64,000 nucleotides of DNA from Nitrospiraceae bacterium (GTDB lineage: Bacteria; Nitrospirota; Nitrospiria; Nitrospirales; Nitrospiraceae), in NCBI GenBank assembly GCA_013140715.1, contig JABFSG010000081.1, positions 1 to 64,000 on the forward strand. Direction: 5' to 3'. Shown piece by piece: positions 14,776 to 17,113 of this stretch. How positions within the stretch are numbered: the first letter of the stretch is position 1; the number at the start of each line of letters is the position of its first letter. Both the position numbers and the translations under genes were made by a program. The notes under the pieces are model-generated. The model had not been told where the DNA came from. It was given only the letters and a program-made list of their open reading frames with translations, and searched no databases.

Positions 14776-15012
14776 CTACGCGCTACGGTCTCTGGCGGGT
14801 TTGTCGGAATCCTTTTCGTGCTCGTTATCCTCAGATGCGAGAGCCGCAAGGCGCTGAGAGTCTAGTTTTCTCCGTTCCTTCCCGGTTGTTGCCATCGGGT
14901 TTTCCAGAAAGAACTTCCAGGCAAAGTAGACGATGGCTAGCCATATACCGATGATGATGGTCCAGCTGACTATCTGTATCAAGCCGAACTCTGGCCCAGT
15001 CCATGTGGTCAT
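14776..15012 (-). CDS. Small single-pass membrane protein
   Basis: 78 residues: one membrane helix (LIQIVSWTIIIGIWLAIVYFAW) near the N-terminus and a long charged, probably cytoplasmic tail rich in Lys, Arg, Glu and Asp. The start overlaps the stop of the YbgC-type thioesterase gene by 4 bp, so the two are translated together. No homologous family recognised. Confidence 0.6.
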   Translation of the reverse strand: MTTWTGPEFGLIQIVSWTIIIGIWLAIVYFAWKFFLENPMATTGKERRKLDSQRLAALASEDNEHEKDSDKPARDRSA

Positions 15013-15413
15013 TTAGCGACTCCTTGCAGTGAAAATTTTAGCATGGTCACAATTGCCTTGTCGAGGCGCTTGATCTTGCCGTTCTCGTCGACGGTTGCCA
15101 GTCTTGCCGATCCTTCGACGACCACACGGCCGCTGGTTTTTTCTTTCACCGCGTGGGTAAACGTTAAAGAGGCGGATCGCAAATCCTTGACGGAGGTCTC
15201 GACCATCAAGGTCTCGCCATACCGAGCGGGCGAGCAATAATCCACTTCTGCATGCACCACGACGAACACTGTACCTTCTTTCATGAGCCCAGCTACCGAC
15301 AACCCTCGCTCTTCCAGATACTGGGTCCGTGCCCGCTCGAAATACTTCAGATAATTCGCGTAGTACACCATCCCACCACAGTCCGTGTCTTCGTAGTAAA
15401 TTCTAATATCCAT
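15009..15413 (-). CDS. ybgC: YbgC-type acyl-CoA thioesterase
   Basis: Hot-dog-fold thioesterase of 134 residues. The signature YEDTDCGGMVYYANYLKYFERAR holds the catalytic Asp and is diagnostic for the 4-hydroxybenzoyl-CoA thioesterase/YbgC family. In proteobacteria YbgC sits with the Tol-Pal genes; here no tol genes are nearby. It is coupled to a small membrane-protein gene downstream. The substrate cannot be told from the sequence. Confidence 0.9.
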   Translation of the reverse strand: MDIRIYYEDTDCGGMVYYANYLKYFERARTQYLEERGLSVAGLMKEGTVFVVVHAEVDYCSPARYGETLMVETSVKDLRSASLTFTHAVKEKTSGRVVVEGSARLATVDENGKIKRLDKAIVTMLKFSLQGVAK

Positions 15414-15440
15414 AAGAGCTGATGGCTTATAGTTTATGGC
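15413..15440. repeat. Short inverted repeat, arm 1 around the four-helix gene
   Basis: TAAGAGCTGATGGCTTATAG and the following bases match the complement of 15834-15859 (TAAGAGCATATGGCTTATGG...). The arm touches the ybgC start codon. Similar motifs occur at 12035-12140 and 36888-36974. Confidence 0.55.
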
Positions 15441-15808
15441 AAGAGAAAACCGGCCTTATGCGAACGTGTTTCTGAACGCATTAATGCTTCTCGCAAGTCG
15501 CCGACCGTCCCCGTACAAACCTTCATGCCCGGGCTCAGTAATGTACTCGCAGTCCTTGCGATAAAAGATCCGGTAACCACCTCAAAGGTCGAGCCTAGTG
15601 AAATTTCCAAATGGTAGTCGAAGGCTTGATTGGAATTCTTGGCAATGCCCTCTCCAATGTTGAGACTTATCGAATTGACTGCACGGTTCATTTGAGATTT
15701 CAATCCGTAATCCTCGGGCCGAGGAAATTTGGCGGTAAGTGCATAGACCTTCGTTCCATACCCCCTGGCCATCTGCAAGATCTCTAGGGTTTCAAACCGG
15801 AACGCCAT
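15434..15808 (-). pseudogene. Four-helix-bundle protein (S23/bAvd type), frameshifted
   Basis: The N-terminal 85 residues match the 23S-rRNA-intervening-sequence/bAvd four-helix family (SQMNRAVNSISLNIGEGIAK, FDYHLEISLGSTFEV). After SFIAR the frame gives sequence unlike the family. Shifting by one base near 15551-15554 restores a typical C-terminus (CEYITEPGHEGLYGDGRRLA then RSINAFRNTFA) ending at a stop at 15456. A 1-nt deletion is therefore likely, either a real mutation or a sequencing error. The gene lies between two inverted repeats (15413-15440 and 15834-15859). No reverse transcriptase is present, so no link to a diversity-generating retroelement is seen. Confidence 0.75.
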
Positions 15809-15833: not shown

Positions 15834-15859
15834 TATACGCCATAAGCCATATGCTCTTA
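15834..15859. repeat. Short inverted repeat, arm 2 around the four-helix gene
   Basis: TATACGCCATAAGCCATATG and following bases are the inverted partner of 15413-15440. On the minus strand the arm begins with the TAA stop codon of the CARF-HEPN gene. Confidence 0.55.
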
Positions 15860-17113
15860 GAGGTTAAGAACCGGAAACTTCGGCAATGATGTCTCGCTGC
15901 CACCGGACAACTTGACGACCACTTCGTACAGTTGCTGCACCCGCTCAGCTTTGACCGGCTCGAAACCGTGGCCAAGGACTGCATGGTTGGCTGCGTCGAG
16001 CAGCGGTTTCATCGTCGGCCATTCGCGTAAGAAGGCTTGGCCCATCTGGTCACCCAATCCAGCCAGAGTGCGAAACTGCGCCTGTAAGGATAGCTTGTAC
16101 TTGCCGTCCAGATCTTCCAGCCAACAGGATCGGCAGGTTTCCCGTAGCGCCTGCGGCAACTGTTCCGGCTGTACATCCCAGGTTTTGATCTGGTGCTGTT
16201 TGAACAATTGTCGTTGGGCGAAGGCTTCGAGCGCGCGAACGAGCGAGACCATCGCGGCTTCCGAGTCCTGCGCACCATGCAGTCGTCGATCTGCATGGGC
16301 CAGCAGGTCGGGGGCCTGCATCTCTTTTACAGGGGCAGGATCGAGTACAAGTTTTTCCAAGAATCCCGCGTTGGCTTTGATCGCCGGAAGCAGCGAGGTG
16401 AGTCCTGGCGGTCCACCCCACAGGGAGGCCATCTCGAAGGCCTTCACGGCACCCTTCAGTTTCTCCCAGGCTTGACGATAATGAAATCGTTCCCAGAGGT
16501 CGTAGCCATCGGCCAGATCGGCGAAAGCCCGATAGAGCGGTTTCTGCCCTCCGCTCACCCTTGCTTCGACCTCGCGGAACAGCTTGGCTGCTGCGGAAAA
16601 TAATCTCCGGTTAAACAACTCGCACCCTTCTCTGCGTGAGACAGTTGCCGCTTCATCCCAGGGATTTCCTTGCGTCCAGATGAACGGCTGCCCGGCAAGA
16701 TCGATTCTGTCGTCCTCCTGTCTTTCTTGCGCCGGCACGAGCGACACGATTCGCGAACTGAGAGATCGTGTAGTCAACGTCAGCGCACCTGCCATGGCCG
16801 GCGTCGCTCCGGTCATATCGACGATGAGCTCGCCCGGCTGCACCTCCCATGTATGCAACATGGCCGGAAGTGTTCGGGCAAGCATCTGGTAGCAACTAAC
16901 GAAATCGCCGGTCTCTGGCAGCACCACCCAATCCCACCGTCTGGGCATGTGCTCGATCTTTGGCTGGACTTCGGATTCCACAAGCGATTTCGCCCTTTCA
17001 GGCAACACGAAGCAGAGCGAATCCGGCTGCAAACGATTGATCGAGTAGACCGCCGCCGCCGTATGGTCGGTGAGGGCGATCACTAGGGCTTTGACTGGTT
17101 GGTCCTGCGCCAT
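15857..17113 (-). CDS. Stand-alone CARF-HEPN protein, Cas02710 (TIGR02710) type
   Basis: 418 residues. The N-terminal part is a CARF-like Rossmann domain (VKALVIALTDHTAAAV; IVDMTGATPAMAGALTL at about 97-113, matching the D-x-TGGTKxM ligand-binding motif). A helical C-terminal part ends in ANHAVLGHGFEPV, which aligns with the HEPN RNase motif RNxxxxxHG of this family. The catalytic Arg is replaced by Ala375; His382 is kept. CARF proteins sense cyclic oligoadenylate in type III CRISPR systems, but no cas gene or array is present here. The domain-based start is ATG 17113; a longer frame to 17230 adds 39 residues without CARF similarity. Ligand-binding may be retained with nuclease activity reduced or lost. 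Confidence 0.75.
   Translation of the reverse strand: MAQDQPVKALVIALTDHTAAAVYSINRLQPDSLCFVLPERAKSLVESEVQPKIEHMPRRWDWVVLPETGDFVSCYQMLARTLPAMLHTWEVQPGELIVDMTGATPAMAGALTLTTRSLSSRIVSLVPAQERQEDDRIDLAGQPFIWTQGNPWDEAATVSRREGCELFNRRLFSAAAKLFREVEARVSGGQKPLYRAFADLADGYDLWERFHYRQAWEKLKGAVKAFEMASLWGGPPGLTSLLPAIKANAGFLEKLVLDPAPVKEMQAPDLLAHADRRLHGAQDSEAAMVSLVRALEAFAQRQLFKQHQIKTWDVQPEQLPQALRETCRSCWLEDLDGKYKLSLQAQFRTLAGLGDQMGQAFLREWPTMKPLLDAANHAVLGHGFEPVKAERVQQLYEVVVKLSGGSETSLPKFPVLNL

Follow-up and report, generated by a model that had tools for sequence, protein, structure and literature searches.

Csm6 from Thermus thermophilus (TtCsm6) provides a detailed view of the residues on which CARF-HEPN proteins depend. 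Alanine substitution of any one of Arg415, Asn416, His422 or Glu332 nearly abolishes its RNase activity (PMC4748810). Likewise, with the K137A mutation, which removes the lysine of its CARF ligand motif, the protein no longer binds or cleaves cA4 and no longer degrades RNA (PMC10897365). Some CARF families usually manage without this residue. In the RtcR and Rv2818 (MtbCsm6) families, the basic residue after strand 4 is mostly absent, and distinct ligands have been proposed for them (PMC4012209). MtbCsm6 is nevertheless activated by cA6 (PMC6755085), and therefore a missing lysine is no proof that a protein fails to bind cyclic oligoadenylate (cOA). Inactive HEPN domains, in turn, have been proposed to act as nucleic-acid-binding domains (PMC3710099).

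In this study, we examined a gene carried by a 64-kb stretch of DNA (the window) from a Nitrospira genome. An earlier note on the window had described its product as a solo CARF-HEPN protein whose HEPN arginine is replaced, and had suggested that it might sense or sequester cyclic nucleotides without cleaving RNA. Overall, we consider it reasonably probable that the protein is a domesticated Csm6 pseudoenzyme, dead as an RNase and with its ligand pocket repurposed.

Results

The window encodes a Csm6-like protein

The 418-amino-acid product of the gene (Table 1) scores 121 bits with the NCBIfam model TIGR02710, which has a cut-off of 83.9. It is also matched by the Pfam families PF09670 (Csm6 HEPN, 8.5e-21) and PF22205 (Csm6_6H, 4.5e-11). 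The PADLOC CARF1--CARF_HEPN models match it as well, with PDLC01812 covering the full length (1.4e-235). All 41 Nitrospira-group proteins tested matched TIGR02710 (E <= 0.001), and 96 intact orthologues rule out a sequencing or frame artifact.

A search of the PDB with the single sequence returned no useful match, and a profile search recovered TtCsm6 at 1e-4. An AlphaFold2 model computed from 41 orthologues has a pLDDT of 86 and is less certain at the loop formed by residues 331-338 and at the motif loop near residues 370-390. When compared using VIA-align, the predicted fold corresponds to TtCsm6 over 388 residues (Z 20.6, 19% identity), and both the model and the structural matches indicate that the CARF fold is intact. 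Thus, the profile searches and structure prediction that the earlier note had recommended agree on a CARF-6H-HEPN architecture. Together with the lack of cas genes in the genome (see below), they bear out the description of a solo CARF-HEPN protein.

Table 1. Features of the CARF-HEPN locus in the 64-kb window, with dN/dS estimates for the three protein domains
Feature	Position	Strand	Basis or remark
CARF-6H-pseudoHEPN gene, 418 aa (degenerate Csm6, TIGR02710 family)	15857..17113	-	Profile matches and TtCsm6 fold match
CARF domain, residues 1-150	16664..17113	-	AlphaFold2 model and structural matches to CARF domains; dN/dS 0.118
CARF strand-4 motif DMTGATP, residues 99-105 (canonical DYTGGTK)	16799..16819	-	
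6H helical linker domain, residues 151-258	16340..16663	-	Lowest dN/dS of the protein (0.043)
HEPN-fold domain, residues 259-403	15905..16339	-	dN/dS 0.062
Degenerate HEPN motif ANHAVLGHG, residues 375-383 (canonical RN.S.LAHG)	15965..15991	-	
23S rRNA-intervening-sequence (IVP) family gene, between the CARF gene and ybgC	15434..15808	-	PF05635
ybgC-type acyl-CoA thioesterase gene, usual operon partner across the order	15009..15413	-	PF03061

The HEPN catalytic arginine is lost throughout Nitrospirales

The sequence ANHAVLGHG aligns without gaps to the RN.S.LAHG motif of relatives, which means that the arginine of the window protein has been replaced by alanine and the histidine has been kept, just as the earlier note had read it. 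This replacement is not a local oddity. Among 96 distinct orthologues from the order Nitrospirales, position 375 is occupied by Ala (92 sequences), Val (2), Ser (1), or Thr (1), and never by Arg. The histidine is lost in 18 of these orthologues (Tyr, Gln, Gly, Arg, Ala, or Asn is found instead) and the Asn column of the motif is variable, with Leu380, Gly381, and Gly383 being invariant. The R-X4-6-H catalytic motif of Csm6/Csx1 effectors is therefore missing from the Nitrospirales proteins. As judged from these alignments, the order-wide fixation of the arginine loss supports the previously suggested decoupling from RNA cleavage.

A replacement arginine elsewhere in the protein was considered and rejected because comparison of the 96 orthologues with their relatives revealed no newly fixed Arg or His in the order. 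Conservation is retained at Arg276, Arg293, Lys388, Arg391, and Glu296, the last of which is the counterpart of TtCsm6 Glu332 according to profile alignment and residue numbering. These conserved residues make residual or different nucleic-acid chemistry conceivable.

The CARF ligand motif is also degraded

The canonical DxTGGTK motif reads Dx[TS]xAT[PASV] in the Nitrospirales orthologues. More specifically, the strand-4 consensus is D[YF]T.GTK in the sister clade and in CRISPR-linked relatives, versus D[LIVMF][TS].AT[PASV] in Nitrospirales. Gly103 is replaced in 96 of 96 orthologues (by Ala, Thr, or Ser), and the same is true of Lys105 (by Pro, Ala, Ser, Val, or Thr). As a result, every orthologue departs from the CARF signature [DN]X[ST]XXX[RK] by lacking the final K/R, with Asp99 and Thr/Ser101 being kept. 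On strand 1, the GG[ST] sequence is mostly lost through replacement of Gly15 and Gly16. The full set of ligand residues characteristic of ring nucleases and cOA sponges (strand-1 G-T/S-S and strand-4 T-G-K) is not present.

The DMTGAT sequence that had been cited as a CARF ligand motif is located at strand 4, but it is degraded because the Gly and Lys of the canonical GGTK are gone. This breakage escaped the earlier note. Given these losses and the near absence of Cas10 from the order, both the idea of a cyclic-nucleotide sensor and that of a cOA sponge are weakened.

The gene has no CRISPR or cyclic-nucleotide partner

No CRISPR-like array is present within the window, and profile searches of the whole genome detected no Csm1/Cas10, Cmr2, or RAMP protein. 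These results confirm the earlier statement that the 64 kb hold no array or cas gene, and they argue against a type III system elsewhere in this genome. The lone weak Cas10 match in the genome corresponds to the HD domain of RNase Y, which presumably also explains similar weak matches (profile positions 7-108) in family f3.

Across 121 Nitrospirales genomes, Csm1 exceeds the cut-off in 4 and Cmr2 in 3, and Cas10 is carried by at most 6 altogether. The presence of the solo CARF-HEPN gene is unlinked to Cas10, and thus the type III association typical of Csm6/Csx1 effectors is lacking. About 95% of the sampled genomes have no cOA source. CD-NTases were considered as an alternative source of cyclic nucleotides, and SMODS proteins were found in 8 of the 121 genomes and not in the one studied here. 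No phage-borne copies of the gene were found in viral contigs. Paralogues of the canonical type, with intact motifs, are confined to four of the Cas10-bearing Nitrospirales genomes, and in two of these four the paralogue is located ~4-11 kb from the Cmr2 gene. Hence the proposal of non-CRISPR signaling is upheld with regard to its setting, but not with regard to the sensing of cyclic nucleotides.

The gene is a core gene under purifying selection

The CARF-HEPN gene is found in 98 of the 121 sampled genomes and in 34 of 37 genera, and it is single copy in all but a few. Gene order is kept across the order, with divergent genes for a SIS-domain protein and a deoxyhypusine-synthase-like protein located upstream, and with ybgC located downstream on the same strand. 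A contig named "uncultured Nitrosospira" (CAADGK010000056.1, L053) also carries a Nitrospira-type locus and gene order, and this name is probably an error for a Nitrospira bin.

Almost every genome has an intact reading frame, even where identity falls to 46%. Comparisons with close relatives yield dN/dS values of 0.06-0.10, in the same range as those of neighboring enzymes (0.03-0.14). Several residues are newly fixed in the order, including W60, D61, and G381 (100%) as well as W62, W312, C327, and K338 (97-99%). Because these substitutions became fixed on the Nitrospirales stem, they suggest new constraint rather than decay.

The gene is associated with ybgC

Close co-directional adjacency of the CARF gene and ybgC is observed across the order. 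The IVP gene that separates them in the window is absent from this junction in most other genera. Where it is absent, the median gap between the CARF stop codon and the ybgC start codon is 19 bp, and many members of family f3 have a gap of 18 bp. Inserts in Nitrospira loosen the link. IVP genes with 35-80% identity recur at this junction in ~25 loci, which gives it the look of a favored insertion site. In part of family f3 (L112-L122), ybgC is often followed in the same orientation by a lipB-like gene (octanoyltransferase, assigned by eye alone), giving the order CARF-ybgC-lipB.

The two genes are also gained and lost jointly. Among 87 genomes that are at least 90% complete, 73 carry both genes, 3 carry only the CARF gene, none carries only ybgC, and 11 carry neither, where these are raw counts that ignore kinship. 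Of the 11 genomes with neither gene, 6 retain a control neighbor, and therefore the losses there are real. The other 5 lack the neighbor as well, and an absent contig is possible in them. In a small-genome Nitrospira (G016, 1.7 Mb), the pair has been cleanly deleted as a unit from the interval bounded by hemL and the SIS gene, and the flanks are kept (L166, C23:106000-115000). The lack of the pair in small genomes indicates that it is dispensable.

On the basis of the operon and the co-loss, acyl or envelope metabolism is the best lead for the process served by the protein, and we offer it tentatively. YbgC is a possible, rather than a probable, functional partner, as the tight operon can be incidental.

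Solo status probably preceded motif loss

We used a profile search to collect TIGR02710-type relatives across 396 genomes of the phylum. The resulting tree groups the Nitrospirales proteins with a sister clade of solo TIGR02710 proteins from another class (family f21, L153-L156; support 100/98), and the Nitrospirales stem branch has a length of 0.79. Relatives in other families of the phylum reside inside type III loci. Given this tree and the intact motifs of the solo sister proteins, the gene probably became solo before its motifs were lost on the Nitrospirales stem.

Three of the four f21 neighborhoods that were read adjoin nadK, rho, prfA, and murA (the first two confirmed by Pfam and the last two named by eye), and no ybgC link was seen in these stretches. 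The intact-motif proteins at L153 4977-6224, L154 6001-7248, and L155 4963-6150 adjoin nadK and rho away from cas genes, and Cas10, where present, sits on another contig. From its sequence, the f21 protein is possibly an active CARF-HEPN RNase that has been kept as a core gene.

Discussion

This stably inherited core gene has lost the residue for cutting RNA as well as the one that usually binds the signal, and hence an everyday (housekeeping) job is most likely for its product. We are confident that the protein is RNase-dead and domesticated, and we consider it likely that it is not gated by cOA. In the scheme that we favor, a CARF-HEPN effector already resided outside CRISPR loci in the Nitrospirales ancestor. 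This effector would then have lost its HEPN catalytic arginine and its CARF strand-1 and strand-4 ligand motifs, and the degenerate Csm6 would have been kept as a vertically inherited core gene that is normally transcribed just ahead of ybgC. The protein is predicted to be a homodimer in the Csm6 arrangement that neither cuts RNA nor responds to cOA. With less certainty, the remodeled CARF pocket (Ala103/Pro105 plus the order-specific Trp-Asp-Trp at residues 60-62) may accommodate a different small molecule or the end of an RNA, and the HEPN cleft, now catalytically dead, may hold RNA or another protein as its partner. Such a protein would have a regulatory output tied to acyl or envelope metabolism via YbgC. 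The complete version of this proposal is speculative and in our view somewhat doubtful. It states that the effector was fully converted on the Nitrospirales stem to a housekeeping regulator, whose pocket reads a non-cOA ligand (e.g., acyl-CoA-like or an RNA end) and whose dead HEPN domain binds RNA or protein together with YbgC.

Other explanations must be weighed against domestication to an everyday role. All defined relatives are defense effectors and pseudoenzymes are able to serve as adaptors, and so a CARF-pseudoHEPN dimer could act as a non-CRISPR defense or stress switch that works through another toxin or partner. However, the gene is inherited vertically as a single copy within a stable chromosomal gene order, and no defense genes lie nearby. 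This pattern does not resemble the patchy spread of typical defense genes, which makes a switch of this kind unlikely. The protein might instead buffer the cOA of a type III system or an invader, or another cyclic nucleotide, without cutting RNA. A sponge of this type would be compatible with the intact CARF fold, with the retention of Asp99 and Thr/Ser101, and with the activation by cA6 of MtbCsm6, whose family mostly lacks the basic residue. Yet all or almost all orthologues have lost Lys105 and the strand-1 GG[ST], the matching K137A mutation costs TtCsm6 its cA4 binding, and both cOA sources and CD-NTases are too rare in the order, and absent here, for us to view a sponge as anything but rather unlikely.

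We also consider it improbable that the protein is still an RNase with an active site re-engineered from Glu296, Arg293, Lys338, Lys388, and Arg391. In favor of this idea, these five positions hardly vary, and purifying selection on the HEPN domain is strong. However, canonical RxxxxH relatives conserve Arg276, Arg293, and Glu296 to the same degree, and thus these three are not replacements. In addition, the order has no newly fixed Arg or His, the histidine is dispensable, and a single R-to-A mutation kills TtCsm6. Finally, a TIGR02710 member in a genome without cas genes could be a functionless remnant, left to drift after the loss of a type III CRISPR system. This explanation is refuted by the low dN/dS values and intact reading frames unless the dN/dS estimates are badly wrong, and order-wide synteny and newly fixed residues further argue against it.

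The protein is not categorically new because its family and fold are known and its sequence falls within a PADLOC CARF1 model. Indeed, the match to PDLC01812 suggests that the sequence has already been binned in the CARF classification. In a literature search that lay outside the 2020 CARF classification, we met no description of a Csm6 that is doubly degenerate and domesticated across a whole order, and nothing that joins Nitrospira with Csm6 beyond passing mention. In what appears to be an ancient case, an immune effector has lost its enzymatic and ligand motifs throughout an order that includes nitrite-oxidizing and comammox Nitrospira, and has become a core gene under strong selection. CARF-HEPN proteins therefore would not always be parts of defense systems. 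TIGR02710 carries the curated name "CRISPR-associated CARF protein", which misleads when applied to a nitrifier core gene, and automatic annotation is likely to do the same because nearly all matching Nitrospira-group genomes are without type III systems. The sensing by CARF domains of things other than cOA becomes testable, and the close intact-motif sister provides a natural before/after pair.

These f21 sister proteins resemble the Nitrospirales protein in residing outside CRISPR loci, but they retain RN.S.LAHG and DYTGGTK. The CRISPR-linked Csx1/Csm6 paralogues (L126-L130, L159-L163) are homologous along the length of the Nitrospirales protein, and those found inside Nitrospirales genomes share 25-32% identity with it. 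Unlike the solo protein, they have intact RN....H and GTK motifs. Most are located ~4-11 kb from Cas10 or other cas genes, and two (L126 and L127) are known just as residents of Cas10-bearing genomes. TtCsm6 (PDB 5FSH, 8JH1; PF09670) has the same CARF-6H-HEPN chain, and its Glu332 is kept as Glu296. However, it carries Arg415/Asn416/His422 and Thr133/Gly135/Lys137, whereas the equivalent Arg and Lys are absent in every Nitrospirales orthologue, its Gly135 is Ala in the Nitrospira protein, and the Nitrospira genome has no type III locus. The RtcR and Rv2818-type families offer CARF precedents for the missing basic residue, but RtcR is fused to a sigma-54 activator and Rv2818 (MtbCsm6) is part of a type III system, and neither is a pseudo-HEPN core gene.
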